DNA of 64,000 nt. Source: Gracilariopsis chorda (taxonomy: Eukaryota; Rhodophyta; Florideophyceae; Gracilariales; Gracilariaceae). Of the stretch, positions 46,314 to 64,000 are shown in pieces. Each line of letters starts with the position of its first letter. Within the stretch, counting starts at the first letter, position 1. Made by a program: the position numbers and the translations under genes. The notes below the pieces were generated by a model that worked only from the letters and a program-made list of their open reading frames with translations, had not been told where the DNA came from and made no database searches. The DNA lies in assembly GCA_003194525.1 (NCBI GenBank), contig NBIV01000263.1, positions 78,546-142,545 on the forward strand, written 5' to 3'.

Positions 46314-46367
46314 ATATTTTGATCATTAATGAGGCCTTCTTATAGTAGTGTTACTTGTACGTATGGG

Positions 46368-46895
46368 CTAGGACAGCGTTTTAGGCGGTGTCTGCTTGGG
46401 CATAGTACTGACACAGAACGTTGAACTAGTGGTGGAAACGTTGTATACGCGTGTATGTGCATTTTTGACCCCTTGTGTGGAGGGAGGACTTTGTCCTGTA
46501 GGCACTGTATGATACATTCCGGACGGCTGAAAAATGTGGACACAGATTATACAGGACAGCGTTTTGCAAAAACGTTGTCCTGGGTTCAAAAAATTAATAT
46601 TTTCCACCGCCCCTAGGACATGGTTTTGGAAGGATTTGGCACGTGCCTGGTGCGTGCACCACAAAAGCGGGTTTTCGAGGTACGTAAAGGCATTCTCCGT
46701 GCCAAAATGAACGTGCTCTAGGACAACGTTTTTCGCGTATTCCGTCAGACGCGTGCAAGTGGTTATGCTTGTGTAAGTGAAGCGCAAATGCTCAATCTGA
46801 GCTGCGTTTTTCTTCGCTCCCGAGACATATGAGGCTTCGCAGAGCGGTCGTAGCACTTTTGTGTTTGTTGAGGGGGGTAAGATTGGATTGTTCAT
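46368..46895 (-). CDS. Hypothetical protein, 175 aa
   Basis: Minus frame from ATG near 46895. The N-terminal 110 residues look protein-like (FTYTSITTCTRLTEYAK, VVLEHVHFGTENAFTYLENP); the rest is Thr/Pro/Ser-rich. A 29-nt palindrome falls inside it. It is the last non-element gene candidate before the telomere-like tract. No family recognised. Confidence 0.35.
   Translation of the reverse strand: MNNPILPPSTNTKVLRPLCEASYVSGAKKNAAQIEHLRFTYTSITTCTRLTEYAKNVVLEHVHFGTENAFTYLENPLLWCTHQARAKSFQNHVLGAVENINFLNPGQRFCKTLSCIICVHIFQPSGMYHTVPTGQSPPSTQGVKNAHTRVYNVSTTSSTFCVSTMPKQTPPKTLS
46553..46581. repeat. 29-nt palindrome built on AGGACARCGTTTT
   Basis: AGGACAGCGTTTTGCAAAAACGTTGTCCT-type arms around GCAAA (46553-46581). 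Single arms recur near 46370 (AGGACAGCGTTTT) and 46720 (AGGACAACGTTTT). Confidence 0.5.
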
Positions 46896-46940
46896 GTTGG
46901 ATATGTGGTTTTAGCGTTCATTACGCTTCGGAAGGGAAGC

Positions 46941-47094
46941 GGTTCTAAGGTAGCGGGGTTTTTAGAATAGAGTTTAGGGGTGTTACAGCGGCTTTGAAAG
47001 TTTACGGTTACATGGTGTCCTATGTATGCTACAGGTTTTTAGAGGTTTTTAGTGGATTCTAAGGTAGCGGGGTTTTTAGAATAGAGTTTAGGGG
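46941..47094. repeat. Direct repeat of about 40 bp before the telomere-like tract
   Basis: TTCTAAGGTAGCGGGG ... TAGAATAGAGTTTAGGGG occurs at 46941-46980 and 47055-47094. The first copy continues into unique sequence (TGTTACAGCGG); the second continues straight into the T(n)AGGGG repeats. Confidence 0.75.
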
Positions 47095-47260
47095 TTTTTA
47101 GGGGTTTTTAGGGGTTTTTAGGGGATTTTAGGGGGTTTTTAGGGGTTTAGGGGTTTTAGGGGTTTTTAGGGGTTTTTAGGGGTTTTTTAGGGGGTTTTAG
47201 GGGATTTTTTTAGGGGTTTTTTAGGGGTTTTAGGGGTTTTTTGGGGTTTTTTGCTTTAGG
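47085..47260 (+). repeat. Telomere-like tract, T(3-6)AGGGG on the plus strand
   Basis: Some 17 irregular repeats, mostly TTTTTAGGGG with TTTAGGGG, TTTTAGGGG, TTTTTTAGGGG and AGGGGG variants. The G-rich strand reads 5'-3' rightward, so the chromosome end should lie at higher coordinates. The 3' end of the first PLE unit abuts it at about 47251 (GGGGTTTTTTGCTTT). Confidence 0.8.
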
Positions 47261-47414
47261 GGTGGGTGGGGGTGTGCGGCGTCGCGGGGGTTTAGGGGGA
47301 GAGAGCGGCTTAGGGGCTTAGGGGAAGCCCCTGATTTAGGGGAGGGTTATATAAGAGGAGGTTGAGAGAAAGAAGGAGGGAAGGGGAAAGAGGGAAGGGG
47401 AACGACTTAAGCTT

Positions 47415-47450
47415 GGCAGAGCGCTTTCGTCTTTATGACTCCTCAGTGCC
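47415..47450 (-). ncRNA. Minimal type I hammerhead ribozyme (unit 1)
   Basis: Minus-strand order: GGCA (stem I), CUGAGGA (core CUGANGA), GUC-AUAAA-GAC (stem II), GAAA, GCGC, UC, UGCC (stem I). Predicted cleavage after C at 47419. Stem III is only A-U/G-C closed by a self-complementary AGCGCU, as in the minimal PLE hammerheads thought to act as dimers. Confidence 0.8.
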
Positions 47451-47497
47451 TGGTGGGTTGACTGGGAGGAGAGAAGGGTCGGAGCGATTCCGGAGCC

Positions 47498-47505
47498 CTT
47501 ATATA
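47498..47505 (-). promoter_or_regulatory. TATA box in the 3' UTR (unit 1; conserved in all units)
   Basis: TATATAAG on the minus strand, 62 nt after the RT stop and about 48 nt before the ribozyme. A start site 25-30 nt downstream would place the RNA 5' end about 20 nt ahead of the hammerhead. From units 2-6 this promoter would transcribe the next inner unit. A second TTATATAA lies at 47347-47354. Confidence 0.5.
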
Positions 47506-47566
47506 CACTCCTGATCTACCCTAACACTAAGCTGCCGCTACCTCTTAACTACATGTGTATGATGAC

Positions 47567-49435
47567 TCACTCCAACGTTAAGAATTGTGGGCCATCTGCT
47601 TCGTTGGCTGCTGCGTTGGCTTCGCTGGCTTTGGCCCGTTCCTGCTTCTTCCAGAAGCGGTTCCAGTAAGCCACATACCTATGAAACATATTCTCTCGTG
47701 TGATCCTCCTCCGCGTGACATTACAACGAGTTGTCTTACGTGAGCGTGCTACACGTGCACCTACATCTGTACTTCCAATACGTGCATGTACACGTGCACT
47801 AATTACACCTTTCCTGACATTGTCACCTTGTGTAAACAGCATAGTACGTGGCCATCTCTCATGTAACTTTGGATTCACAAACTTAGTGTAAACCCATTGT
47901 TCCAGCAGCTTCCACGTATCTCTCACAAGTGGATGGTACTGACACTTGACAACTTGGTCTAGTTCAGGAGGATCCCTAGTGACGCCTCGCAAATACTTGT
48001 CACGATCACGGTAACTTACATAATCCAATGCGACACGTAGCTGTTTTCCAGTATACCCACGTTGTGCCAGCATTTGAAATAGAAAGTGTACCTTGTGCAC
48101 CCAGGTTCGTTCATCGCTGGTGTTTCTCAGGTACCTGATTATTTCTCCTTTGATAACACCAGTGAAAACGTGGTCTGGGTGGTTAGACTTGCCGTGGAGA
48201 TAAAGAAATTTGGAGATAGGTTTCGTGTACACCTTGATGTCCACAATATTCCTGAAGAGGAATCTCCTTCCTTTATAGATCTCCAGATCCAGGTAGATAG
48301 CTCGCTGATCACTGATATCCCATGTAAAGTTGAGATTTGAGCATGCACTTAACTTTTTCATGAGACTTTCAGCCGCTTCTCTGGATCGGAGGATCACGAA
48401 ACCATCATCAATATATCTTCGGTTCATGATCACATCCTTGGCATAGTCCTTGAAGATCCTTCGGAACTTATAGAACAAGTACAAGTTGGCAAATGATGGA
48501 GCAACTGGTGTGCCCGTTGCTGTCCCAGTTACTTGTCTATAAACCCTTTCTCCTAGCTGCACGAAATTGTTGTTCATAATCAGCTGTAGGATACGACACC
48601 AGAAGCCATTGTTAGTCATGAATATTGAAGGTAGTTCACGAACCAACACCCGAATGGCATCTTTGATGTCGATTGCAGGGTAGCACCTTTCTACGTCGTA
48701 CGTTAGGAATGTACAGTCGTTGGGAAGGTGCATTTGTTCCAATTGTCTCACAGTCTGCCAGCTGTTCACAGTGATAGCCGGTATCTTTGCCACAACTTCG
48801 TTTAGAATTGAACTTAGTTGTCGCGACAATTCGGCCAGCATATATGAGTGTGATGCTGTGATTGGCCTAGACTTGACTGTGGGCTTATGGATCTTCGGAA
48901 GTACATAAAAGGGAGCTGGGTCTTCGGCTTTCTTGGCGTATCGAATGATACTTTTCTCTTCCTTCTCGGGTAGTGGACACTGTTGCAAGATTTCAACGAG
49001 GTTACTGAGTACTCTTTCATGGGGAAAGAAGACACTTCAGAGAATGCACCCCCGTTGATTTCTCCGTCCACTAGTCCGTCGTAGAAGTCAGAGCTCATAA
49101 GTGTGAGACCAAGGTTCTTATCCGATTCTTTGACGATCCAACCCTTTTCCTTAATGTACTTCATTCCTTGCACTATCGTTAAATGCAAGGAAGGGGGTCG
49201 ATCAACATTCATCTTACTAACCACTCTCTCCAACTTGTGTTGAACACGAGTTATGGTTTGTCGATCAACCCCGTCATACCCTCTCTTCAGAACCCTTGGC
49301 AGATCTGTCACAGCTTGTCCGAGTGACAGCCTGAGCGGCGATTGCAGAGAAAAACCCTCCTCCTACCGATAGTACCTTCTTCACATTATCCGGTACTTCG
49401 TTATGAGGTATGTTAATCGGAGGGTTGTACTTCAT
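47567..49435 (-). CDS. PLE reverse transcriptase (ORF2), unit 1, two frame breaks
   Basis: About 622 residues when intact (as inferred from other units). N-terminal PLE region with KESDKNLGLTLMSSDFY, then FYVLPKIHKP, RT motif A TYDVERCYPAID, motif B GTATGTPVAPSFANLYL, catalytic RYIDDGFVI (YIDD), YLDLEIYKGRRF and KFLYLHGKSNHPDHVF: the signature set of Penelope RTs, relatives of telomerase RT. The C-terminus is basic (RKTTRCNVTRRRITREN) and lacks the GIY-YIG nuclease of canonical Penelope. The longest uninterrupted piece is 48988-47567 (473 codons); the N-terminal part is displaced by the G4/G5 run at 49020 and the A5 run near 49350. Both are homopolymer differences, so sequencing error is likely. 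Confidence 0.9.
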
Positions 49436-49479
49436 GCTTCTGGGTTCAAAAGAGCGGGGCTTCCGTGGCCTTGAACGGT

Positions 49480-50313
49480 TTAATTTTGCTTGGCGCCCCG
49501 TCCGGTGGCGCCTCGCTTCCCGTTTTTCGGCCTTCCTTTGGATTTTCCTTTCGTCTTAGAAGCATTCCCCTGATTGCCTTTCTTCGGGTAAGGCTTTTCA
49601 GTCCTCTTTGGGCCTTGCTTCTTCTGAGAGTCTCGGATGCTCTTCACATCCTTTTTCAACGCTGAGAGCTCCTTCCGCAGCCGATCGACTCCCGTAGTAT
49701 CTGGAGCCTCCACTTCATCGGCCTCGACAGCGGCTTTCTTCAGGAGATCAGCGGAACGTTTCTCAGATTCGACGAACGATCCAAAGGTGAGCTTAAGTTC
49801 AAACTTCATCCTGGACTTCTCCATATCTTCGTGGAGTTTGTCCATGTAGTTGGTCTTGAAGTCCTTCACTCGCTCATCTGTTAGGTCCGGGATGAGGTTA
49901 TAAGCATGGTGTAGTGCTTCCTCGACCTTTACAGTGGCTTCTTTGAAGATGTCCTTACGCTCGCCATTCATTTCCTTGACATCATCGGCTCTGGCGTCAA
50001 GAAGGAGCTGAATGGCATCTTTGCAATAGCGTTCGGTAAGGACCTTGAACTTCTCACGGAACGATTCCTCCTGGGAACTAGGACATTGAGGCATGCGGGG
50101 CACTGCAATGGCCTTAGGGACAGTTCCTTTCTCTTGGTGTTCGAGTAGTTCACTCAAGAGGGAGGTTCTTTTCACGATCTTCTCATCCAAATCCTGAACG
50201 CGTCGACGATACGGAGCGACGACTTTGTCCAGGTTCGGCTTCACCATGCCATACAGTTCTTCATCCGAGTACTCTAGCGGTGGAGTCTCGGGAACCATGT
50301 TCTGAGGCGGCAT
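49480..50313 (-). CDS. PLE ORF1 protein, 277 aa (unit 1)
   Basis: Starts 60 nt inside the unit 5' boundary. Glu/Lys-rich with helical, coiled-coil-like stretches (YRRRVQDLDEKIVKRTSLL; VDRLRKELSALKKDVKSIRD) and a strongly basic Gly/Lys tail (KTKGKSKGRPKNGKRGATG). No enzymatic motif. By analogy with ORF1 proteins of other retroelements it may coat element RNA or target it to telomeres; this is inference. Ends 44 nt before the ORF2 ATG, in a separate frame. Confidence 0.8.
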   Translation of the reverse strand: MPPQNMVPETPPLEYSDEELYGMVKPNLDKVVAPYRRRVQDLDEKIVKRTSLLSELLEHQEKGTVPKAIAVPRMPQCPSSQEESFREKFKVLTERYCKDAIQLLLDARADDVKEMNGERKDIFKEATVKVEEALHHAYNLIPDLTDERVKDFKTNYMDKLHEDMEKSRMKFELKLTFGSFVESEKRSADLLKKAAVEADEVEAPDTTGVDRLRKELSALKKDVKSIRDSQKKQGPKRTEKPYPKKGNQGNASKTKGKSKGRPKNGKRGATGRGAKQN

Positions 50314-50537
50314 CTTCGGTGAATGATTGAGATCGGATTGGCGACGGCAACTACCCCTCGGATTAGGGGTTTTTTGCTTTAGGGGTGGGTGGGGGTGTGC
50401 GGCGTCGCGGGGGTTTAGGGGGAGAGAGCGGCTTAGGGGCTTAGGGGAAGCCCCTGATTTAGGGGAGGGTTATATAAGAGGAGGTTGAGAGAAAGAAGGA
50501 GGGAAGGGGAAAGAGGGAAGGGGAACGACTTAAGCTT

Positions 50538-50573
50538 GGCAGAGCGCTTTCGTCTTTATGACTCCTCAGTGCC
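50538..50573 (-). ncRNA. Minimal hammerhead ribozyme (unit 2)
   Basis: Same 36 nt as unit 1 with no change; predicted cleavage after the C at 50542. A read-through RNA cut at both ribozymes would give a 3123-nt monomer. Confidence 0.8.
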
Positions 50574-50620
50574 TGGTGGGTTGACTGGGAGGAGAGAAGG
50601 GTCGGAGCGATTCCGGAGCC

Positions 50621-50628
50621 CTTATATA
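50621..50628 (-). promoter_or_regulatory. TATA box in the 3' UTR (unit 2)
   Basis: TATATAAG at the position equivalent to that in unit 1 (+3123). Lies so as to drive transcription through the ribozyme, the unit junction and unit 1 ORF1, the neighbour-promoter arrangement known from Drosophila HeT-A. Confidence 0.45.
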
Positions 50629-50689
50629 CACTCCTGATCTACCCTAACACTAAGCTGCCGCTACCTCTTAACTACATGTGTATGATGAC

Positions 50690-52557
50690 TCACTCCAACG
50701 TTAAGAATTGTGGGCCATCTGCTTCGTTGGCTGCTGCGTTGGCTTCGCTGGCTTTGGCCCGTTCCTGCTTCTTCCAGAAGCGGTTCCAGTAAGCCACATA
50801 CCTATGAAACATATTCTCTCGTGTGATCCTCCTCCGCGTGACATTACAACGAGTTGTCTTACGTGAGCGTGCTACACGTGCACCTACATCTGTACTTCCA
50901 ATACGTGCATGTACACGTGCACTAATTACACCTTTCCTGACATTGTCACCTTGTGTAAACAGCATAGTACGTGGCCATCTCTCATGTAACTTTGGATTCA
51001 CAAACTTAGTGTAAACCCATTGTTCCAGCAGCTTCCACGTATCTCTCACAAGTGGATGGTACTGACACTTGACAACTTGGTCTAGTTCAGGAGGATCCCT
51101 AGTGACGCCTCGCAAATACTTGTCACGATCACGGTAACTTACATAATCCAATGCGACACGTAGCTGTTTTCCAGTATACCCACGTTGTGCCAGCATTTGA
51201 AATAGAAAGTGTACCTTGTGCACCCAGGTTCGTTCATCGCTGGTGTTTCTCAGGTACCTGATTATTTCTCCTTTGATAACACCAGTGAAAACGTGGTCTG
51301 GGTGGTTAGACTTGCCGTGGAGATAAAGAAATTTGGAGATAGGTTTCGTGTACACCTTGATGTCCACAATATTCCTGAAGAGGAATCTCCTTCCTTTATA
51401 GATCTCCAGATCCAGGTAGATAGCTCGCTGATCACTGATATCCCATGTAAAGTTGAGATTTGAGCATGCACTTAACTTTTTCATGAGACTTTCAGCCGCT
51501 TCTCTGGATCGGAGGATCACGAAACCATCATCAATATATCTTCGGTTCATGATCACATCCTTGGCATAGTCCTTGAAGATCCTTCGGAACTTATAGAACA
51601 AGTACAAGTTGGCAAATGATGGAGCAACTGGTGTGCCCGTTGCTGTCCCAGTTACTTGTCTATAAACCCTTTCTCCTAGCTGCACGAAATTGTTGTTCAT
51701 AATCAGCTGTAGGATACGACACCAGAAGCCATTGTTAGTCATGAATATTGAAGGTAGTTCACGAACCAACACCCGAATGGCATCTTTGATGTCGATTGCA
51801 GGGTAGCACCTTTCTACGTCGTACGTTAGGAATGTACAGTCGTTGGGAAGGTGCATTTGTTCCAATTGTCTCACAGTCTGCCAGCTGTTCACAGTGATAG
51901 CCGGTATCTTTGCCACAACTTCGTTTAGAATTGAACTTAGTTGTCGCGACAATTCGGCCAGCATATATGAGTGTGATGCTGTGATTGGCCTAGACTTGAC
52001 TGTGGGCTTATGGATCTTCGGAAGTACATAAAAGGGAGCTGGGTCTTCGGCTTTCTTGGCGTATCGAATGATACTTTTCTCTTCCTTCTCGGGTAGTGGA
52101 CACTGTTGCAAGATTTCAACGAGGTTACTGAGTACTCTTTCATGGGGAAAGAAGACACTTCAGAGAATGCACCCCCGTTGATTTCTCCGTCCACTAGTCC
52201 GTCGTAGAAGTCAGAGCTCATAAGTGTGAGACCAAGGTTCTTATCCGATTCTTTGACGATCCAACCCTTTTCCTTAATGTACTTCATTCCTTGCACTATC
52301 GTTAAATGCAAGGAAGGGGGTCGATCAACATTCATCTTACTAACCACTCTCTCCAACTTGTGTTGAACACGAGTTATGGTTTGTCGATCAACCCCGTCAT
52401 ACCCTCTCTTCAGAACCCTTGGCAGATCTGTCACAGCTTGTCCGAGTGACAGCCTGAGCGGCGATTGCAGAGAAAACCCTCCTCCTACCGATAGTACCTT
52501 CTTCACATTATCCGGTACTTCGTTATGAGGTATGTTAATCGGAGGGTTGTACTTCAT
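50690..52557 (-). CDS. PLE reverse transcriptase (ORF2), unit 2, one frame break
   Basis: ATG 52555-52557 opens MKYNPPINIPHNEVPDNV and runs 150 codons of the PLE N-terminal domain until CATGGGGAAAG at 52141. There units 3 to 5 have one more G and the frame is continuous; here it shifts, and the RT core resumes in the 52111-50690 frame with all catalytic motifs (YIDD near overall residue 341). If the missing G is real, the element would need frameshifting; a homopolymer error is the simpler reading. Confidence 0.9.
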
Positions 52558-52601
52558 GCTTCTGGGTTCAAAAGAGCGGGGCTTCCGTGGCCTTGAACGG
52601 T

Positions 52602-53435
52602 TTAATTTTGCTTGGCGCCCCGTCCGGTGGCGCCTCGCTTCCCGTTTTTCGGCCTTCCTTTGGATTTTCCTTTCGTCTTAGAAGCATTCCCCTGATTGCC
52701 TTTCTTCGGGTAAGGCTTTTCAGTCCTCTTTGGGCCTTGCTTCTTCTGAGAGTCTCGGATGCTCTTCACATCCTTTTTCAACGCTGAGAGCTCCTTCCGC
52801 AGCCGATCGACTCCCGTAGTATCTGGAGCCTCCACTTCATCGGCCTCGACAGCGGCTTTCTTCAGGAGATCAGCGGAACGTTTCTCAGATTCGACGAACG
52901 ATCCAAAGGTGAGCTTAAGTTCAAACTTCATCCTGGACTTCTCCATATCTTCGTGGAGTTTGTCCATGTAGTTGGTCTTGAAGTCCTTCACTCGCTCATC
53001 TGTTAGGTCCGGGATGAGGTTATAAGCATGGTGTAGTGCTTCCTCGACCTTTACAGTGGCTTCTTTGAAGATGTCCTTACGCTCGCCATTCATTTCCTTG
53101 ACATCATCGGCTCTGGCGTCAAGAAGGAGCTGAATGGCATCTTTGCAATAGCGTTCGGTAAGGACCTTGAACTTCTCACGGAACGATTCCTCCTGGGAAC
53201 TAGGACATTGAGGCATGCGGGGCACTGCAATGGCCTTAGGGACAGTTCCTTTCTCTTGGTGTTCGAGTAGTTCACTCAAGAGGGAGGTTCTTTTCACGAT
53301 CTTCTCATCCAAATCCTGAACGCGTCGACGATACGGAGCGACGACTTTGTCCAGGTTCGGCTTCACCATGCCATACAGTTCTTCATCCGAGTACTCTAGC
53401 GGTGGAGTCTCGGGAACCATGTTCTGAGGCGGCAT
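52602..53435 (-). CDS. PLE ORF1 protein, 277 aa (unit 2)
   Basis: Identical in sequence to the unit 1 ORF1, including the basic C-terminal tail. The stop at 52602-52604 is 44 nt before the ORF2 start, so ORF2 translation would need re-initiation, internal entry or a separate RNA. Confidence 0.8.
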   Translation of the reverse strand: MPPQNMVPETPPLEYSDEELYGMVKPNLDKVVAPYRRRVQDLDEKIVKRTSLLSELLEHQEKGTVPKAIAVPRMPQCPSSQEESFREKFKVLTERYCKDAIQLLLDARADDVKEMNGERKDIFKEATVKVEEALHHAYNLIPDLTDERVKDFKTNYMDKLHEDMEKSRMKFELKLTFGSFVESEKRSADLLKKAAVEADEVEAPDTTGVDRLRKELSALKKDVKSIRDSQKKQGPKRTEKPYPKKGNQGNASKTKGKSKGRPKNGKRGATGRGAKQN

Positions 53436-53655
53436 CTTCGGTGAATGATTGAGATCGGATTGGCGACGGCAACTACCCCTCGGATTAGGGGTTTTTTGCT
53501 TTAGGGGTGGGTGGGGTGTGCGGCGTCGCGGGGGTTTAGGGGAGAGAGCGGCTTAGGGGCTTAGGGGAAGCCCCTGATTTAGGGAGGGTTATATAAGAGG
53601 AGGTTGAGAGAAAGAAGGAGGGAAGGGAAAGAGGGAAGGGGAACGACTTAAGCTT

Positions 53656-53691
53656 GGCAGAGCGCTTTCGTCTTTATGACTCCTCAGTGCC
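53656..53691 (-). ncRNA. Minimal hammerhead ribozyme (unit 3)
   Basis: All core and stem bases identical to units 1 and 2. Confidence 0.8.
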
Positions 53692-53807
53692 TGGTGGGTT
53701 GACTGGGAGGAGAGAAGGGTCGGAGCGATTCCGGAGCCCTTATATACACTCCTGATCTACCCTAACACTAAGCTGCCGCTACCTCTTAACTACATGTGTA
53801 TGATGAC

Positions 53808-55676
53808 TCACTCCAACGTTAAGAATTGTGGGCCATCTGCTTCGTTGGCTGCTGCGTTGGCTTCGCTGGCTTTGGCCCGTTCCTGCTTCTTCCAGAAGCG
53901 GTTCCAGTAAGCCACATACCTATGAAACATATTCTCTCGTGTGATCCTCCTCCGCGTGACATTACAACGAGTTGTCTTACGTGAGCGTGCTACACGTGCA
54001 CCTACATCTGTACTTCCAATACGTGCATGTACACGTGCACTAATTACACCTTTCCTGACATTGTCACCTTGTGTAAACAGCATAGTACGTGGCCATCTCT
54101 CATGTAACTTTGGATTCACAAACTTAGTGTAAACCCATTGTTCCAGCAGCTTCCACGTATCTCTCACAAGTGGATGGTACTGACACTTGACAACTTGGTC
54201 TAGTTCAGGAGGATCCCTAGTGACGCCTCGCAAATACTTGTCACGATCACGGTAACTTACATAATCCAATGCGACACGTAGCTGTTTTCCAGTATACCCA
54301 CGTTGTGCCAGCATTTGAAATAGAAAGTGTACCTTGTGCACCCAGGTTCGTTCATCGCTGGTGTTTCTCAGGTACCTGATTATTTCTCCTTTGATAACAC
54401 CAGTGAAAACGTGGTCTGGGTGGTTAGACTTGCCGTGGAGATAAAGAAATTTGGAGATAGGTTTCGTGTACACCTTGATGTCCACAATATTCCTGAAGAG
54501 GAATCTCCTTCCTTTATAGATCTCCAGATCCAGGTAGATAGCTCGCTGATCACTGATATCCCATGTAAAGTTGAGATTTGAGCATGCACTTAACTTTTTC
54601 ATGAGACTTTCAGCCGCTTCTCTGGATCGGAGGATCACGAAACCATCATCAATATATCTTCGGTTCATGATCACATCCTTGGCATAGTCCTTGAAGATCC
54701 TTCGGAACTTATAGAACAAGTACAAGTTGGCAAATGATGGAGCAACTGGTGTGCCCGTTGCTGTCCCAGTTACTTGTCTATAAACCCTTTTCTCCTAGCT
54801 GCACGAAATTGTTGTTCATAATCAGCTGTAGGATACGACACCAGAAGCCATTGTTAGTCATGAATATTGAAGGTAGTTCACGAACCAACACCCGAATGGC
54901 ATCTTTGATGTCGATTGCAGGGTAGCACCTTTCTACGTCGTACGTTAGGAATGTACAGTCGTTGGGAAGGTGCATTTGTTCCAATTGTCTCACAGTCTGC
55001 CAGCTGTTCACAGTGATAGCCGGTATCTTTTGCCACAACTTCGTTTAGAATTGAACTTAGTTGTCGCGACAATTCGGCCAGCATATATGAGTGTGATGCT
55101 GTGATTGGCCTAGACTTGACTGTGGGCTTATGGATCTTCGGAAGTACATAAAAGGGAGCTGGGTCTTCGGCTTTCTTGGCGTATCGAATGATACTTTTCT
55201 CTTCCTTCTCGGGTAGTGGACACTGTTGCAAGATTTCAACGAGGTTACTGAGTACTCTTTCATGGGGGAAAGAAGACACTTCAGAGAATGCACCCCCGTT
55301 GATTTCTCCGTCCACTAGTCCGTCGTAGAAGTCAGAGCTCATAAGTGTGAGACCAAGGTTCTTATCCGATTCTTTGACGATCCAACCCTTTTCCTTAATG
55401 TACTTCATTCCTTGCACTATCGTTAAATGCAAGGAAGGGGTCGATCAACATTCATCTTACTAACCACTCTCTCCAACTTGTGTTGAACACGAGTTATGGT
55501 TTGTCGATCAACCCCGTCATACCTCTCTTCAGAACCCTTGGCAGATCTGTCACAGCTTGTCCGAGTGACAGCCTGAGCGGCGATTGCAGAGAAAACCCTC
55601 CTCCTACCGATAGTACCTTCTTCACATTATCCGGTACTTCGTTATGAGGTATGTTAATCGGAGGGTTGTACTTCAT
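53808..55676 (-). pseudogene. PLE reverse transcriptase (ORF2), unit 3, indels
   Basis: At CATGGGGGAAAG (55261) this unit has the longer G run, so the N-terminal domain is continuous with FPHERVLSNLVEILQQCPLP. Extra T and other one-base changes near 54788 and 55030 break the frame in the RT core. The C-terminal 305 codons (54725-53808) including YIDD are intact. Confidence 0.85.
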
Positions 55677-55721
55677 GCTCTCTGGGTTCAAAGAAGCGGG
55701 GCTTCCGTGGCCTTGAACGGT

Positions 55722-56551
55722 TTAATTTTGCTTGGCGCCCCGTCCGGTGGCGCCTCGCTTCCCGTTTTTCGGCCTTCCTTTGGATTTTCCTTTCGTCTTA
55801 GAAGCATTCCCCTGATTGCCTTTCTTCGGTAAGGCTTTTCAGTCCTCTTTGGGCCTTGCTTCTTCTGAGAGTCTCGGATGCTCTTCACATCCTTTTTCAA
55901 CGCTGAGAGCTCCTTCCGCAGCCGATCGACTCCCGTAGTATCTGGAGCCTCCACTTCATCGGCCTCGACAGCGGCTTCTTCAGGAGATCAGCGGAACGTT
56001 TCTCAGATTCGACGAACGATCCAAAGGTGAGCTTAAGTTCAAACTTCATCCTGGACTTCTCCATATCTTCGTGGAGTTTGTCCATGTAGTTGGTCTTGAA
56101 GTCCTTCACTCGCTCATCTGTTAGGTCCGGGATGAGGTTATAAGCATGGTGTAGTGCTCCTCGACCTTTACAGTGGCTTCTTTGAAGATGTCCTTACGCT
56201 CGCCATTCATTTCCTTGACATCATCGGCTCTGGCGTCAAGAAGGAGCTGAATGGCATCTTTGCAATAGCGTTCGGTAAGGACCTTGAACTTCTCACGGAA
56301 CGATTCCTCCTGGGAACTAGGACATTGAGGCATGCGGGGCACTGCAATGGCCTTAGGGACAGTTCCTTTCTCTTGTGTTCGAGTAGTTCACTCCAAGAGG
56401 GAGGTTCTTTTCACGATCTTCTCATCCAAATCACTGAACGCGTCGACGATACGGAGCGACGACTTTGTCCAGGTTCGGCTTCACCATGCCATACAGTTCT
56501 TCATCCGAGTACTCTAGCGTGGAGTCTCGGGAACCATGTTCTGAGCGGCAT
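55722..56551 (-). pseudogene. PLE ORF1, unit 3, several indels
   Basis: ORF1 homologue in pieces (56342-56121, 56109-55897, 55954-55688 and others) because of single-base indels. The frame is recoverable against units 1 and 2. Confidence 0.75.
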
Positions 56552-56771
56552 CTTCGGTGAATGATTGAGATCGGATTGGCGACGGCAACTACCCCTCGGA
56601 TTAGGGGTTTTTTGCTTTAGGGGTGGGTGGGGTGTGCGGCGTCGCGGGGTTAGGGGAGAGAGCGGCTTAGGGGCTTAGGGGAAGCCCCTGATTTAGGGGA
56701 GGGTTATATAAGAGGAGGTTGAGAGAAAGAAGGAGGGAAGGGGAAAGAGGGAAGGGGAACGACTTAAGCTT

Positions 56772-56807
56772 GGCAGAGCGCTTTCGTCTTTATGACTCCT
56801 CAGTGCC
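56772..56807 (-). ncRNA. Minimal hammerhead ribozyme (unit 4)
   Basis: Unchanged although the surrounding unit carries many indels. Confidence 0.8.
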
Positions 56808-56922
56808 TGGTGGGTTGACTGGGAGGAGAGAGGGTCGGAGCGATTCCGGAGCCCTTATATACACTCCTGATCTACCCTAACACTAAGCTGCCGCTACCTC
56901 TTAACTACATGTGTATGATGAC

Positions 56923-58787
56923 TCACTCCAACGTTAAGAATTGTGGGCCATCTGCTTCGTTGGCTGCTGCGTTGGCTTCGCTGGCTTTGGCCGTTCCTGC
57001 TTCTTCCAGAAGCGGTTCCAGTAAGCCACATACCTATGAAACATATTCTCTCGTGTGATCCTCCTCCGCGTGACATTACAACGAGTTGTCTTACGTGAGC
57101 GTGCTACACGTGCACCTACATCTGTACTTCCAATACGTGCATGTACACGTGCACTAATTACACCTTTCCTGACATTGTCACCTTGTGTAAACAGCATAGT
57201 ACGTGGCCATCTCTCATGTAACTTTGGATTCACAAACTTAGTGTAAACCCATTGTTCCAGCAGCTTCCACGTATCTCTCACAAGTGGATGGTACTGACAC
57301 TTGACAACTTTGGTCTAGTTCAGGAGGATCCCTAGTGACGCCTCGCAAATACTTGTCACGATCACGGTAACTTACATAATCCAATGCGACACGTAGCTGT
57401 TTTCCAGTATACCCACGTTGTGCCAGCATTTGAAATAGAAAGTGTACCTTGTGCACCCAGGTTCGTTCATCGCTGGTGTTTCTCAGGTACCTGATTATTT
57501 CTCCCTTTGATAACACCAGTGAAAACGTGGTCTGGGTGGTTAGACTTGCCGTGGAGATAAAGAAATTTGGAGATAGGTTTCGTGTACACCTTGATGTCCA
57601 CAATATTCCTGAAGAGGAATCTCCTTCCTTTATAGATCTCCAGATCCAGGTAGATAGCTCGCTGATCACTGATATCCCATGTAAAGTTGAGATTTGAGCA
57701 TGCACTTAACTTTTTCATGAGACTTTCAGCCGCTTCTCTGGATCGGAGGATCACGAAACCATCATCAATATATCTTCGGTTCATGATCACATCCTTGGCA
57801 TAGTCCTTGAAGATCCTTCGGAACTTATAGAACAAGTACAAGTTGGCAAATGATGGAGCAACTGGTGTGCCCGTTGCTGTCCCAGTTACTTGTCTATAAA
57901 ACCCTTTCTCCTAGCTGCACGAAATTGTTGTTCATAATCAGCTGTAGGATACGACACCAGAAGCCATTGTAGTTCATGAATATTGAAGGTAGTTCACGAA
58001 ACCAACACCCGAATGGCATCTTTGATGTCGATTGCAGGGTAGCACCTTCTACGTCGTACGTTAGGAATGTACAGTCGTTGGGAAAGGTGCATTTGTTCCA
58101 ATTGTCTCACAGTCTGCCAGCTGTCACAGTGATAGCCGTATCTTTGCCACAACTTCGTTTAGAATTGAACTTAGTTGTCGCGACAATTCGGCCAGCATAT
58201 ATGAGTGTGATGCTGTGATTGGCCTAGACTTGACTGTGGGCTTATGGCATCTTCGGAAGTACATAAAAGGGAGCTGGTCTTCGGCTTTCTTGGCGTATCG
58301 AATGATACTTTTCTCTTCCTTCTCGGGTAGTGGACACTGTTGCAAGATTCAACGAGTTACTGAGTACTCTTTCATGGGGGAAAGAAGACACTTCAGAGAA
58401 TGCACCCCGTTGATTTCTCGTCCACTAGTCCGTCGTAGAAGTCAGAGCTCATAAGTGTGAGACCAAGGTTCTATCCGATTCTTTGACGATCCAACCCTTT
58501 CCTTAATTACTTCATTCCTTGCACTATCGTTAAATGCAAGGAAGGGGTCGATTCAACATTCATCTTACTAACCACCTCTCTCCAACTTGTGTTGAACACG
58601 AGTTATGGTTTGTCGATCAACCCCGTCATACCCTCTCTTCAGAACCCTTGCAGATCTGTCACAGCTTGTCCGAGTGACAGCCTGAGCGGCGAATTGCAGA
58701 GAAAACCCTCCTCCTACCGATATGTACCTTCTTCACATTATCCGGTACTTCGTTATGAGGTATGTTAATCGGAGGGTTGTACTTCAT
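56923..58787 (-). pseudogene. PLE reverse transcriptase (ORF2), unit 4, indels
   Basis: RT core segments readable in pieces, including a YIDD-containing piece at 57841-57467 and the basic C-terminal piece 57281-56934. At least ten indels relative to unit 2. Confidence 0.75.
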
Positions 58788-58829
58788 GCTTCTGGTTCAA
58801 AAGAGCGGGCTTCCGTGGCCTTGAACGGT

Positions 58830-59658
58830 TTAATTTTGCTTGGCGCCCCGTCCGGTGGCGCCTCGCTTCCGTTTTTCGGCCTTCCTTTGGATTTTCCTTT
58901 CGTCTTAGAAGCATTCCCCTGATTGCCTTTCTTCGGGTAAGGCTTTTCAGTCCTCTTTGGGCCTTGCTTCTTCTGAGAGTCTCGGATGCTCTTCACATCC
59001 TTTTTCAACGCTGAGAGCTCCTTCCGCAGCCGATCGACTCCCGTAGTATCTGGAGCCTCCACTTCATCGGCCTCGACAGCGGCTTTCTTCAGGAGATCAG
59101 CGGAACGTTTCTCAGATTCGACGAACGATCCAAAGGTGAGCTTAAGTTCAAACTTCATCCTGGACTTCTCCATATCTTCGTGGAGTTTGTCCATGTAGTT
59201 GGTCTTGAAGTCCTTCACTCGCTCATCTGTTAGTCCGGGATGAGGTTATAAGCATGGTGTAGTGCTTTCCTCGACCTTTACAGTGGCTTCTTTGAAGATG
59301 TCCTTACGCTCGCCATTCATTCCTTGACATCATCGGCTCTGGCGTCAGAAGGAGCTGAATGCATCTTTGCAAATAGCGTTCGGTAAGGACCTTGAACTTC
59401 TCACGGAACGATTCCTCCTGGGAACTAGGACATTGAGGCATGCGGGGCACTGCAATGGCCTTAGGACAGTTCCTTTCTCTTGGTGTTCGAGTAGTTCACT
59501 CAAGAGGGAGGTTCTTTTCACGATCTTCTCATCCAAATCCTGAACGCGTCGACATACGGAGCGACGACTTTGTCCAGGTTCGCTTCACCATGCCATACAG
59601 TTCTTCATCCGAGTACTCTAGCGGTGGAGTCTTCGGGAACCATTTCTGAGGCCGGCAT
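58830..59658 (-). pseudogene. PLE ORF1, unit 4, indels
   Basis: C-terminal 125 codons or so are continuous (59218-58784 frame, shifted near 58868). The N-terminal part is broken around 59230-59350 and 59550-59650. Confidence 0.7.
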
Positions 59659-59871
59659 TCTTCGGTGAATGATTGAGATCGGATTGGCGACGCAACTACC
59701 CTCGGATTAGGGTTTTTTGCTTTAGGGGGGGTGGGGGTGTGCGGCTCGCGGGGTTTAGGGGAGAGAGCGGCTTAGGGCTTAGGGGAAGCCCTGATTTAGG
59801 GGAGGTTATATAAGAGGAGTTGAGAGAAAGAAGGAGAGGGGGAAAGAGGGAAGGGGAACGACTTAAAGCTT

Positions 59872-59907
59872 GGCAGAGCGCTTTCGTCTTTATGACTCCT
59901 CAGTGCC
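59872..59907 (-). ncRNA. Minimal hammerhead ribozyme (unit 5)
   Basis: Core and stems identical to unit 1. Confidence 0.8.
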
Positions 59908-60023
59908 TGGTGGGTTGACTGGGAGAGAGAAGGGTCGGAGCGATTCCGGAGCCCTTATATACACTCCTGATCTACCCTAACACTAAGCTGCCGCTACCCT
60001 CTTAACTACATGTGTATGATGAC

Positions 60024-61889
60024 TCACTCAACGTTAAGAATTGTGGGCCATCTGCTTCGTTGGCTGCTGCGTTGGCTTCGCTGGCTTTGGCCCGTTCCTG
60101 CTTCTTCCAGAAGCGGTTCCAGTAGCCACATACCTATGAAACATATTCTCTCGTGTGATCCTCCTCCGCGTGACATTACAAACGAGTTGTCTTACGTGAG
60201 CGTGCTACACGTGCACCTACATCTGTACTTCCAATACGTGCATGTACACGTGCACTAATTACACCTTTCCTGACATTGTCACCTTGTGTAAACCAGCATA
60301 GTACGTGCCATCTCTCATGTAACTTTGGATTCACAACTTAGTGTAAACCCATTGTTCCAGCAGCTTCCACGTTATCTCTCACAGTGGATGGTACTGACAC
60401 TTGACAACTGGTCTAGTTCAGGAGGATCCCTAGTGACGCCTCGCAAATACTTGTCACGATCACGGTAACTTACATAATCCAATGCGACACGTAGCTGTTT
60501 TCCAGTATACCCACAGCTGTGCCAGCATTTGAAATAGAAAGTGTACCTTGTGCACCCAGGTTCGTTCATCGCTGGTGTTTCTCAGGTACCTGATTATTTC
60601 TCCTTTGATAACACCAGTGAAAACGTGGTCTGGGTGGTTAGACTTGCCGTGGAGATAAAGAAATTTGGAGATAGGTTTCGTGTACACCTTGATGTCCACA
60701 ATATTCCTGAAGAGGAATCTCCTTCCTTTATAGATCTCCAGATCCAGGTAGATAGCTCGCTGATCACTGATATCCCATGTAAAGTTGAGATTTGAGCATG
60801 CACTTAACTTTTTCATGAGACTTTCAGCCGCTTCTCTGGATCGGAGGATCACGAAACCATCATCAATATATCTTCGGTTCATGATCACATCCTTGGCATA
60901 GTCCTTGAAGATCCTTCGGAACTTATAGAACAAGTACAAGTTGGCAAATGATGGAGCAACTGGTGTGCCCGTTGCTGTCCCAGTTACTTGTCTATAAACC
61001 CTTTCTCCTAGCTGCACGAAATTGTTGTTCATAATCAGCTGTAGGATACGACACCAGAAGCCATTGTTAGTCATGAATATTGAAGGTAGTTCACGAACCA
61101 ACACCCGAATGGCATCTTTGATGTCGATTGCAGGGTAGCACCTTTCTACGTCGTACGTTAGGAATGTACAGTCGTTGGGAAGGTGCATTTGTTCCAATTG
61201 TCTCACAGTCTGCCAGCTGTTCACAGTGATAGCCGGTATCTTTGCCACAACTTCGTTTAGAATTGAACTTAGTTGTCGCGACAATTCGGCCAGCATATAT
61301 GAGTGTGATGCTGTGATTGGCCTAGACTTGACTGTGGGCTTATGGATCTTCGGAAGTACATAAAAGGGAGCTGGGTCTTCGGCTTTCTTGGCGTATCGAA
61401 TGATACTTTTCTCTTCCTTCTCGGGTAGTGGACACTGTTGCAAGATTTCAACGAGGTTACTGAGTACTCTTTCATGGGGGAAAGAAGACACTTCAGAGAA
61501 TGCACCCCCGTTGATTTCTCCGTCCACTAGTCCGTCGTAGAAGTCAGAGCTCATAAGTGTGAGACCAAGGTTCTTATCCGATTTTTGACGATCCAACCCT
61601 TTTCCTTAATGTACTTCATTCCTTGCACTATCGTTAAATGCAAGGAAGGGGGTCGATCAACATTCATCTTACTAACCACTCTCTCCAACTTGTGTTGAAC
61701 ACGAGTTATGGTTTGTCGATCAACCCCGTCATACCCTCTCTTCAGAACCCTTGGCAGATCTGTCACAGCTTGTCCGAGTGACAGCCTGAGCGGCGATTGC
61801 AGAGAAAACCCTCCTCCTACCGATAGTACCTTCTTCACATTATCCGGTACTTCGTTATGAGGTATGTTAATCGGAGGGTTGTACTTCAT
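60024..61889 (-). pseudogene. PLE reverse transcriptase (ORF2), unit 5
   Basis: ATG 61887-61889. One missing base near 61581 separates 112 N-terminal codons from a 378-codon piece (61596-60460) that spans the G5 run, all RT motifs and YIDD. Further indels below 60515 break the basic C-terminus. Confidence 0.85.
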
Positions 61890-61933
61890 GCTTCTGGGTT
61901 CAAAAGAGCGGGGCTTCCGTGGCCTTGAACGGT

Positions 61934-62768
61934 TTAATTTTGCTTGGCGCCCCGTCCGGTGGCGCCTCGCTTCCCGTTTTTCGGCCTTCCTTTGGATTTT
62001 CCTTTCGTCTTAGAAGCATTCCCCTGATTGCCTTTCTTCGGGTAAGGCTTTTCAGTCCTCTTTGGGCCTTGCTTCTTCTGAGAGTCTCGGATGCTCTTCA
62101 CATCCTTTTTCAACGCTGAGAGCTCCTTCCGCAGCCGATCGACTCCCGTAGTATCTGGAGCCTCCACTTCATCGGCCTCGACAGCGGCTTTCTTCAGGAG
62201 ATCAGCGGAACGTTTCTCAGATTCGACGAACGATCCAAAGGTGAGCTTAAGTTCAAACTTCATCCTGGACTTCTCCATATCTTCGTGGAGTTTTGTCCAT
62301 GTAGTTGGTCTTGAAGTCCTTCACTCGCTCATCTGTTAGGTCCGGGATGAGGTTATAAGCATGGTGTAGTGCTTCCTCGACCTTTACAGTGGCTTCTTTG
62401 AAGATGTCCTTACGCTCGCCATTCATTTCCTTGACATCATCGGCTCTGGCGTCAAGAAGGAGCTGAATGGCATCTTTGCAATAGCGTTCGGTAAGGACCT
62501 TGAACTTCTCACGGAACGATTCCTCCTGGGAACTAGGACATTGAGGCATGCGGGGCACTGCAATGGCCTTAGGGACAGTTCCTTTCTCTTGGTGTTCGAG
62601 TAGTTCACTCAAGAGGGAGGTTCTTTTCACGATCTTCTCATCCAAATCCTGAACGCGTCGACGATACGGAGCGACGACTTTGTCCAGGTTCGGCTTCACC
62701 ATGCCATACAGTTCTTCATCCGAGTACTCTAGCGGTGGAGTCTCGGGAACCATGTTCTGAGGCGGCAT
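61934..62768 (-). pseudogene. PLE ORF1, unit 5, one frameshift
   Basis: Two overlapping pieces, 62768-62253 and 62278-61934, split by an extra T in GTTTTGTCC near 62292. Otherwise identical to unit 1 ORF1. Confidence 0.8.
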
Positions 62769-62989
62769 CTTCGGTGAATGATTGAGATCGGATTGGCGAC
62801 GGCAACTACCCCTCGGATTAGGGGTTTTTTGCTTTAGGGGTGGGGGGTGTGCGGCGTCGCGGGGGTTTAGGGGGAGAGAGCGGCTTAGGGGCTTAGGGGA
62901 AGCCCCTGATTTAGGGGAGGGTTATATAAGAGGAGGTTGAGAGAAAGAAGGAGGGAAGGGGAAAGAGGGAAGGGGAACGACTTAAGCTT

Positions 62990-63025
62990 GGCAGAGCGCT
63001 TTCGTCTTTATGACTCCTCAGTGCC
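62990..63025 (-). ncRNA. Minimal hammerhead ribozyme (unit 6)
   Basis: Core and stems identical to unit 1. Confidence 0.8.
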
Positions 63026-63141
63026 TGGTGGGTTGACTGGGAGGAGAGAAGGGTCGGAGCGATTCCGGAGCCCTTATATACACTCCTGATCTACCCTAAC
63101 ACTAAGCTGCCGCTACCTCTTAACTACATGTGTATGATGAC

Positions 63142-64000
63142 TCACTCCAACGTTAAGAATTGTGGGCCATCTGCTTCGTTGGCTGCTGCGTTGGCTTCGC
63201 TGGCTTTGGCCCGTTCCTGCTTCTTCCAGAAGCGGTTCCAGTAAGCCACATACCTATGAAACATATTCTCTCGTGTGATCCTCCTCCGCGTGACATTACA
63301 ACGAGTTGTCTTACGTGAGCGTGCTACACGTGCACCTACATCTGTACTTCCAATACGTGCATGTACACGTGCACTAATTACACACCTTTCCTGACATTGT
63401 CACCTTGTGTAAACAGCATAGTACGGGCCATCTCTCATGTAACTTTGGATTCACAAACTTAGTGTAAACCCATTGTTCCAGCAGCTTCCACGTATCTCTC
63501 ACAAGTGGATGGTACTGACACTTGACAACTTGGTCTAGTTCAGGAGGATCCCTAGTGACGCCTCGCAAATACTTGTCACGATCACGGTAACTTACATAAT
63601 CCAATGCGACACGTAGCTGTTTTCCAGTATACCCACGTTGTGCCAGCATTTGAAATAGAAAGTGTACCTTGTGCACCCAGGTTCGTTCATCGCTGGTGTT
63701 TCTCAGGTACCTGATTATTTCTCCTTTGATAACACCAGTGAAAACGTGGTCTGGGTGGTTAGACTTGCCGTGGAGATAAAGAAATTTGGAGATAGGTTTC
63801 GTGTACACCTTGATGTCCACAATATTCCTGAAGAGGAATCTCCTTCCTTTATAGATCTCCAGATCCAGGTAGATAGCTCGCTGATCACTGATATCCCATG
63901 TAAAGTTGAGATTTGAGCATGCACTTAACTTTTTCATGAGACTTTCAGCCGCTTCTCTGGATCGGAGGATCACGAAACCATCATCAATATATCTTCGGTT
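63142..64000 (-). CDS. PLE reverse transcriptase (ORF2), unit 6, partial
   Basis: RT C-terminal half up to the window edge (RYIDDG codons lie at the very end). A 2-base insertion near 63383 and a lost base near 63426 break the basic tail. Confidence 0.8.

Follow-up and report, generated by a model that had tools for sequence, protein, structure and literature searches.

How does a chromosome end that already carries telomere-like repeats come to be extended by a row of nearly identical retroelements? The question is raised by a contig of the red alga Gracilariopsis chorda (C263), in what we call the window, the whole stretch of 64,000 nucleotides that was analysed, where Penelope-like elements (PLEs) follow directly on a tract of T(n)AGGGG repeats. 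The array itself is confirmed. The first-pass annotation had described six minus-strand units of about 3.12 kb distal to this tract; strand, tract and unit size stand, whereas the count becomes five full units (3105–3123 bp) plus one partial, all head-to-tail on the minus strand between 47247 and 64000, since the sixth is cut at the end of the contig (142545), which is the exact end of the window and lies inside the array.

46339..46918, plus strand: subtelomeric stretch in common with C343 (581 columns, 95% identity to L036)
47087..47251, plus strand: telomere-like T(n)AGGGG tract under the array, TTTAGGGGTT-type, 16.3 copies
47247..50369, minus strand: PLE unit 1, 3123 bp
50370..53491, minus strand: PLE unit 2, 3122 bp
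53492..56607, minus strand: PLE unit 3, 3116 bp, with indel noise
56608..59712, minus strand: PLE unit 4, 3105 bp, with indel noise
59713..62824, minus strand: PLE unit 5, 3112 bp, with indel noise
62825..64000, minus strand: PLE unit 6, 3' part only, 1176 bp, cut by the contig end

Other contigs end in the same kind of tract as that at 47087..47251, and the stretch preceding it was found at one of the 16 loci compared, on C343, also just before the telomere tract there. Units 1, 2 and 6 have zero substitutions against the column consensus, and units 3, 4 and 5 have 2, 16 and 9 (among those listed, most are mutually adjacent) together with 16, 42 and 24 indel columns, a pattern that we attribute to thin long-read coverage. 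Across the genome such units fall into at least three families, of about 3.12, 3.265 and 2.98 kb. The dense indels of units 3–5 and the contig end inside the array are what could be expected of an assembly artefact, either a repeat expansion or a chimeric read, but we regard such an origin as very improbable, given that the same spacing between neighbours recurs on many contigs (3263–3266 bp in 33 of 39 adjacent matches for family B and 2977–2981 bp in 12 of 15 for family C), and that the large contigs bearing arrays have different flanks.

The proteins agree with the earlier assignment to a PLE-type reverse transcriptase (RT) lacking the GIY-YIG nuclease.

47567..48988, minus strand: 473-aa part of ORF2 of unit 1, including the RT core (YIDD codons from 48404), RVT_1 match at E 1.7e-8
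49480..50313, minus strand: ORF1 of unit 1, 277 aa, with a Lys-rich C-terminus
52602..53435, minus strand: ORF1 of unit 2, 277 aa

Units 1 and 2 have an interrupted RT frame; open copies are present on C3, one of them of 622 aa with an RVT_1 match at E 2.7e-8. The RT has 135 homologues, and among the 120 listed two (P0097 and P0118) combine RT with GIY-YIG; the alignment has the DKN/DKG and DD residues in common. The ORF1 of the C3 copy (277 aa) found three homologues in the protein search. As to a domain missed through a frameshift, no ORF from the three families gave a GIY-YIG match at E up to 10, and in the C3 copy a 3' UTR of about 320 bp with a hammerhead motif follows ORF2. The only GIY-YIG match of a six-frame search of the assembly lies on C359, a contig absent among those listed with RT matches.

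Arrays of the same polarity occur at several other ends. Among 90 scored RT matches, drawn from 327 candidates and spread over 29 contigs, all 90 respect one strand per contig, so that the mixed orientation which would have spoken against a telomeric array is seen on none of the 29. On large contigs, left-end arrays lie on the plus strand and right-end arrays on the minus strand, and in 8 of the 10 contigs above 70 kb seen with copies these are terminal with the 5' end outward and the 3' end inward, as had been proposed from the window. Internal sites do exist: C58 carries a single truncated copy, some 86 kb away from the closer contig end and without a telomere-repeat cap, and on C266 there is a degenerate copy 14.6 kb in from a contig end. 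A search for telomerase RT found a TERT gene on C110, matched in its RBD and RT domains, with the C-terminal match falling slightly short of its cut-off, and other contig ends carry plain telomere tracts; therefore, this is not a telomerase-free system of the Drosophila type. An rRNA stretch was confirmed as a eukaryotic nuclear gene. Taken together, the interpretation of a telomere-primed, endonuclease-deficient PLE array is supported.

What the RNA of these elements may do is suggested by motifs that recur in each unit.

47415..47450, minus strand: minimal hammerhead motif of unit 1, by explicit motif scan
50538-50573, 53656-53691, 56772-56807, 59872-59907 and 62990-63025, minus strand: hammerhead motifs of units 2–6, by the same scan
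47498..47505, minus strand: 3'-UTR box of unit 1, TATATAAG, read towards the next proximal unit
from 50621, 53739, 56854, 59954 and 63073, minus strand: the same box in units 2–6
50363..50375, minus strand: seam of units 1 and 2 with one telomere-like repeat, TTAGGGGTTTTTT on the plus strand, the proposed template and copying start site
from 53485, 56601, 59707 and 62818, minus strand: the other seams, one telomere-like repeat each

The hammerhead motif, a predicted ribozyme, is found in all six units of the window and in copies fetched for each of the three families; 100 random windows with matched dinucleotide statistics, searched on both strands, gave none. Rfam gave no hammerhead match at E up to 5, possibly owing to a helix III of only 1 bp. 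Two weak Rfam matches to other families, neither at gathering level, were taken as chance. The TATATAAG box is a putative promoter. As had been noticed earlier, a single telomere-like repeat stands at all five seams, though its standing has to be amended: it reads TTAGGGGTTTTTTGC at four of them and has one G fewer at the fifth, and this near-invariance means that the repeat belongs to the element, whereas variable telomere repeats occur elsewhere, between apparently separate insertion events. On the plus strand, TTAGGGG closes the 5' end in families A and B, and family C seams read AAAAGGGG instead. The 3' part of the RNA carries a reverse-complement telomere repeat, a complementary stretch of 12–13 nt lying about 140–160 nt after the hammerhead. 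A stem-loop with the same stem in families A, B and C can also be drawn at the seam; its stability against random sequences shows no excess (z of -1.08, -0.42 and -0.78), and it is kept as a hint, without statistical significance.

The boundaries between telomere repeats and units are equally regular, with 14 of 15, on ten contigs, starting at a family-specific point beside the telomere-complementary 12–13-nt stretch, and the fifteenth at a different CCCC, some 25 nt deeper inside; most were found in the fetched loci through the usual motif, so that unusual boundaries are under-sampled in this count. Besides whole units, there are four solo pieces of about 190 nt, two on C343 and one each on C907 and C117, seen in family C only. 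All of them stop, within a nucleotide, at a common point some 50 nt past TATATAAG and then pass into T(n)AGGGG, and this exact end pattern occurs four times in 91.3 Mb, with none in the control read backward; the common end is probably the 5' end of the RNA. The solo pieces retain an uncut hammerhead, their fixed end lying 5' of it, and the telomere-repeat spacers around them vary on all three contigs. On C343, a full unit is seamlessly joined, without added repeats, to a truncated unit of about 770 bp, whose telomere-repeat cap is about 520 bp long and is followed by the next unit, and C247 has a terminal truncated unit with a telomere-repeat cap as well.

We consider it probable that these ends grow by the copying of a read-through RNA from the telomeric 3' overhang, with an internal start, several units per event, and alternation with telomerase. 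If each unit carries its promoter (TATATAAG) in its 3' UTR, the RNA would start about 190 nt before the seam and read into at least one proximal unit. The 12–13-nt seam stretch, complementary to one telomere repeat, would pair with the G-rich 3' overhang, and the RT would then start inside the RNA at the seam, like telomerase on its template, copying towards the 5' end of that RNA. A start at the first seam would leave only the solo piece of about 190 nt, and a start at a later one would yield one or more whole units as a single seamless cDNA; products stopped early would be capped by telomerase, and the next event would land on the new repeats. This mechanism is supported by the terminal position, the outward polarity and the fixed 3' boundary in telomere repeats, by the hammerhead motif, the near-identical units, the capped incomplete copies on two contigs and the TERT gene, and by the common end of the four solo pieces followed by T(n)AGGGG. 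It is weakened by the C58 internal copy, by the restriction of solo pieces to family C, by the unexceptional stability of the seam stem-loop, and by the absence, in an exact-match pattern search, of the expected completed event (full unit, R end and telomere repeats), most array tips being unassembled. A precedent exists in Poseidon of Anolis carolinensis (PAc), a canonical PLE with GIY-YIG for which PMC11167929 describes internal initiation at an AC-rich stem-loop and hammerhead cleavage not needed in vitro. We further propose, tentatively and with somewhat less than even confidence, that in this telomerase-bearing eukaryote the PLE RNA could be a kilobase-scale counterpart of telomerase RNA, whose read-through form has a 12–13-nt telomere template at each seam, any of which the RT could start from, with 190 nt to several units added per event and telomerase completing unfinished ends.

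Divergence within arrays gives a divided answer. Base units are more diverged than outer ones in two of the four arrays compared, C117 (19/2669 differences in the base unit, computed over both its pieces, 13/2976 in the next and then 0.11-0.23%) and C319 (14/3027 at the base, then 2/1203), which supports the proposed copying, while C269 (3/1696 at the base, 3/1334 at the tip) and C343 (5/2806 and 5/1200) show no age gradient, which weakens it. Rare PLE insertions might instead only seed the ends, with break-induced replication or unequal exchange between ends doing most of the work of extending the seamless arrays and keeping them identical, in the manner of yeast Y' elements, a possibility that we take seriously without thinking it probable. 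The missing gradients would fit it, as would the subtelomeric stretch common to C263 and C343, the single mismatch over 3123 bp between a C3 and a C263 unit, and the fact that most family C units compared across contigs lie within 0.0-0.3% of one majority sequence, such homogeneity being also what recombination would give. Against it stand the older base units on C117 and C319, the separate telomere tract of each end, the differing spacers of the solo pieces, and the coincidence of the seam with the exact point where telomere-abutting copies start.

Two other routes concern how units could be joined during copying itself. Hammerhead-cut tandem RNA might be ligated into circles and copied repeatedly from the telomeric primer, and the hammerhead motifs and nearly invariant seams would suit such rolling circles, hammerhead circles being described for retrozymes (PMC6155905); yet the four solo pieces, with their uncut hammerhead and fixed 5' end, call for a linear RNA, and hammerhead mutants had no effect on insertion in vitro in PMC11167929, so that we hold this route to be unlikely. 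Alternatively, each unit could be added singly, primed by the telomere-like cDNA end of the preceding one, as the TTAGGGG of families A and B could pair with the 3' part of the RNA; this is doubtful indeed, because family C seams lack that TTAGGGG and because the full and truncated units of C343 were joined without added repeats, while solo pieces have variable spacers.

With respect to known systems, six marks of telomere-associated, endonuclease-deficient PLEs were found here (RT, no GIY-YIG, end position, telomere repeat, hammerhead motif and capped truncations), and neither of the two Drosophila-type marks, a non-LTR element and a telomerase-free host. Coprina and other endonuclease-deficient PLEs of fungi, protists and plants are reported by Gladyshev and Arkhipova (2007) to be telomeric, and they would have telomeric position and lack of endonuclease in common with the present elements. 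In Drosophila, HeT-A is transcribed from a promoter within the 3' UTR of the neighbouring element. The first-pass comparison with HeT-A/TART holds for the polar head-to-tail rows at chromosome ends, probably also with a promoter in the neighbour's 3' UTR, and fails for the element and the host: HeT-A, TART and TAHRE are non-LTR elements of a telomerase-free host (PMC10088271), whereas here a PLE-like RT is found in a TERT-bearing host. Close in form are Athena/Terminons of bdelloid rotifers (PMC6431247), telomeric endonuclease-deficient PLEs of up to 40 kb, which likewise have an RT without fused endonuclease, two ORFs, a hammerhead, head-to-tail arrays, a 3' part that contains reverse-complement telomere repeats, and telomere-capped 5' truncations. 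The red-algal element differs in its size of about 3 kb with no accessory genes seen, in its full-length seamless units and solo pieces of about 190 nt, and in the place of the telomere-complementary stretch, about 140–160 nt after the hammerhead instead of directly after it. PAc (PMC11167929) also has tandem copies, a pseudo-LTR with hammerhead and an RT that starts internally, on an AC-rich stretch of its RNA, but its own endonuclease cuts AT-rich DNA and its start RNA is not homologous to the cut DNA, in contrast to the present element, which has no endonuclease and a start stretch complementary to the telomere. We infer that the array represents a compact version of telomeric PLEs already described.

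Among the publications listed in a search for earlier accounts of such arrays none describes this genome, judged by titles and abstract openings with most subscription literature outside the search, and the listed literature matches to the telomere motif look unrelated by title. When viral and genome contigs were searched for relatives in their DNA context, 343 and 168 pattern stretches came up, none confirmed. Contigs of the 83 best relatives measure 3.0-4.2 kb in 66 cases and are longer in 7, as collapsed tandem units might be, but more distant relatives look alike by eye and this clustering was not used as evidence.

Such arrays would be a layer-by-layer natural record of a telomerase-related retroelement and telomerase sharing chromosome ends, and the system bears on the old idea of a common ancestor of telomerase and PLEs. 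The solo pieces, fixed starts and capped truncations make target recognition, the RNA 5' end and the copying start directly testable, and the arrays may also explain why assemblies stop at such ends.

The array of Penelope-like elements (PLEs) adjoining the telomere-like tract at the end of contig C263 (142545 bp, with the window as its final 64 kb, in an assembly of 91.3 Mb and 1081 contigs) is confirmed as real, and its features lie as follows.

47087–47251: T(n)AGGGG telomere-like tract, directly proximal to the PLE array
47247, 50370, 53492, 56608, 59713, 62825, minus strand: starts of the PLE units, head-to-tail

The first-pass annotation described six units in a minus-strand, head-to-tail array after the T(n)AGGGG tract; the arrangement stands, and the count becomes five full units and one part. 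Compared with the column consensus, units 1, 2 and 6 have no substitutions, while units 3–5 have 2, 16 and 9, the displayed ones mostly lying side by side, besides 16, 42 and 24 indel columns, and we read these differences of units 3–5 as sequencing noise.

The same annotation had raised the question of mixed orientation and of arrays at other chromosome ends. Reverse transcriptase (RT) matches were found on at least 29 contigs, counts being lower bounds given that 90 of 327 first-look candidates were scored, and 0 of 29 contigs had mixed strands among the scored matches. The arrays at other ends keep the same polarity: minus at the right ends of C3, C117, C151, C247, C263, C269 and C319, and plus at the left end of C343. 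In all eight of these large contigs the array reaches the last base read (C151 was read up to 405 bp short of its end), except in C247, which ends in telomere repeats after a truncated family B unit. Three families, A (that of the window array), B and C, show about 100, 65 and 55% identity to the RT query and spacings of about 3.12, 3.265 and 2.98 kb. A DNA search with the 3' part of family C (40 of 173 candidates scored) added C319, C853, C1006 and C1046, and PLE-bearing contigs number at least 33, ten longer than 70 kb and 23 between 12 and 26 kb, several of the small ones being array from end to end as judged by match spacing. C907 has additional non-array DNA beyond its telomere tract, and C266 holds a degenerate copy with five internal stops 14.6 kb from its left end. 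On C58 a telomere tract at 226 of 313 kb precedes a truncated copy of 1513 bp, which other DNA follows immediately; no telomere repeats come after this truncation (C58:225–227 kb, locus L006), and the site may have arisen by fusion or break repair, or be the product of a chimeric contig.

Read in RNA sense, each unit contains ORF1 (277 aa) and then ORF2, which is open over 622 aa from the first ATG in the C3 copy and broken in units 1 and 2 of the window. The absence of a GIY-YIG nuclease from the RT, claimed from the sequence alone, was borne out: RVT_1 was the sole Pfam match at E up to 10 in ORF2 of the three families, which gave no GIY-YIG match. Six-frame searching of the whole assembly gave one GIY-YIG match. 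When a GIY-YIG-bearing relative served as the query, 58 of 219 candidates were scored, and every one fell on a contig that already had PLE matches; no endonuclease-bearing PLE was seen among these 58, and divergent ones could sit among the unscored candidates.

Several observations concern the ORFs. The last residues of ORF1 are RGAKQN or RGAKAN in the three families and in its homologues P0121–P0123, of which P0122, an EukProt transcript from a transcriptome assembly with 62% identity to family B, seems to reflect transcription of a related element in another eukaryote. At the ORF1/ORF2 border (e.g., window 49400–49520), complementary CGGGGC/GCCCCG-like stretches were seen by eye on either side of the ORF1 stop, possibly a recoding or reinitiation signal. 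The family C copies C343:10803 and C746:7118 have an open frame of 883 aa vs. 606 aa in many others, as if ORF1 and ORF2 shared one frame. In ORF1 of family B (L020:98–1000) and family C (L034:286–1131), the part that encodes the Lys/Pro-rich C-terminus contains telomere-complementary CCCCTAAA-type stretches; these could provide a further annealing site or act as a seed for telomerase, and the C247 tip truncation lies about 30 nt past this region.

The 3' UTR (about 320 bp) contains TATATAAG, a pyrimidine tract, a minimal hammerhead, more pyrimidine tracts and a telomere-complementary stretch. The hammerhead motif, GGCA-CUGANGA-GUC-RUAAA-GAC-GAAA-GCGC-UC-UGCC, is present in all six window units and in none of 100 random windows of the same dinucleotide statistics (both strands); the Rfam search did not recognise it. 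PLE hammerheads are described as minimal and lacking helix III in a review (PMC6155905).

We aligned 15 telomere/unit boundaries on ten contigs, mostly located via the usual motif in retrieved loci, so that unusual ones are under-sampled.

Aligned telomere/unit boundaries by family
A: C263, C3, C58
B: C151, C247
C: C269, C319, C343 (four), C907 (two), C117 (two)

The unit starts at the same family-specific point in 14 of the 15, the exception being the distal boundary of C343, where the start lies some 25 nt deeper in the unit, at a different CCCC. Seams between neighbouring units hold a telomere-complementary stretch of 12–13 nt, AAAAAACCCCTAA in A and B and CCTAAAAACCCC in C, and a GCGACG-CGUCGC pairing around an AC-rich loop is possible there in all three families, its stability not being significant. 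Solo pieces of about 190 nt stand among telomere repeats on C343 (two), C907 and C117, with variable repeat spacers around them. Each spans the region between the telomeric boundary and a position just 5' of the hammerhead, which it carries uncut. All four end at a common point (within a nucleotide), which in family C follows TATATAAG by about 50 nt; the exact end pattern, which fits any of the three families, occurs four times genome-wide and never for the backward-read control. We infer that this point is the RNA 5' end.

The simplest account would be internal initiation on read-through RNA. Transcription would start some 190 nt ahead of a seam and cross one or more seams, each offering its telomere-complementary sequence as the start stretch for copying, and the RT would extend the telomeric 3' overhang from one seam to the RNA 5' end, such that a first-seam start would leave a solo piece and a later-seam start whole units without breaks. 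An in vitro study of a canonical PLE reports that copying starts internally, at an AC-rich stem-loop, and that insertion does not depend on hammerhead cleavage (PMC11167929). Recombination between ends may also contribute to unit homogeneity.

Divergence along the arrays was measured as clean substitutions relative to a majority sequence, with a floor of about 0.1%. It drops outward on C117 (19/2669 in two pieces of the base unit, 13/2976 in the second unit, then 0.11–0.23%) and on C319 (14/3027, then 2/1203), whereas no such drop appears on C269 (3/1696 at the base, 3/1334 at the tip) or C343 (5/2806 and 5/1200), and therefore two of the four arrays support tip growth. Outward from its telomere tract, C343 has two solo pieces, each followed by a repeat, then a full unit, a truncated unit of about 770 bp joined seamlessly to it, about 520 bp of telomere repeats and the next unit. 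The tract inside this array (C343:8100–8622, locus L057) differs from the base tract in having very long runs of T between its AGGGG blocks, which may reflect sequencing error or telomerase slippage.

The host has a telomerase RT gene on C110 (RBD, E 2.2e-28; RT, E 4.4e-7; C-terminal match just below the cut-off). In the first 100 of the 307 places from the telomere-tract search, plain telomere tracts lie at the right ends of C60, C140 and C173 and the left ends of C45, C95, C159 and C182, with short internal matches on C5 and C96.

The G. chorda PLEs have in common with Terminons (PMC6431247) the RT type, the hammerhead, a 3' telomeric complement, truncations that are capped, and arrays, but differ in their compact 3-kb size, seamless full-length arrays, hammerhead-to-telomeric-stretch distance and solo pieces; we thus regard them as a variant of a known telomeric PLE kind.

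Elsewhere in the assembly, a conserved 18S rRNA stretch recurs about every 14–18 kb on C441, C120, C767, C1047 and others, which makes the rDNA units very long; the part preceding V4 appears unusual beside known sequences. Among the subtelomeric window ORFs, 2858–6031, 38524–40230 and 43503–45938 gave DEAD helicase, PIF1 helicase and RNB matches, and the other 12 non-PLE window ORFs scanned gave no Pfam match above the cut-off. At window 11098–11943 and 1234–1426, palindromic stretches that share a TGTGTCGAGCGACA-type motif are repeated in tandem (copies of 236 and 84 bp) and look like a small inverted-repeat element.
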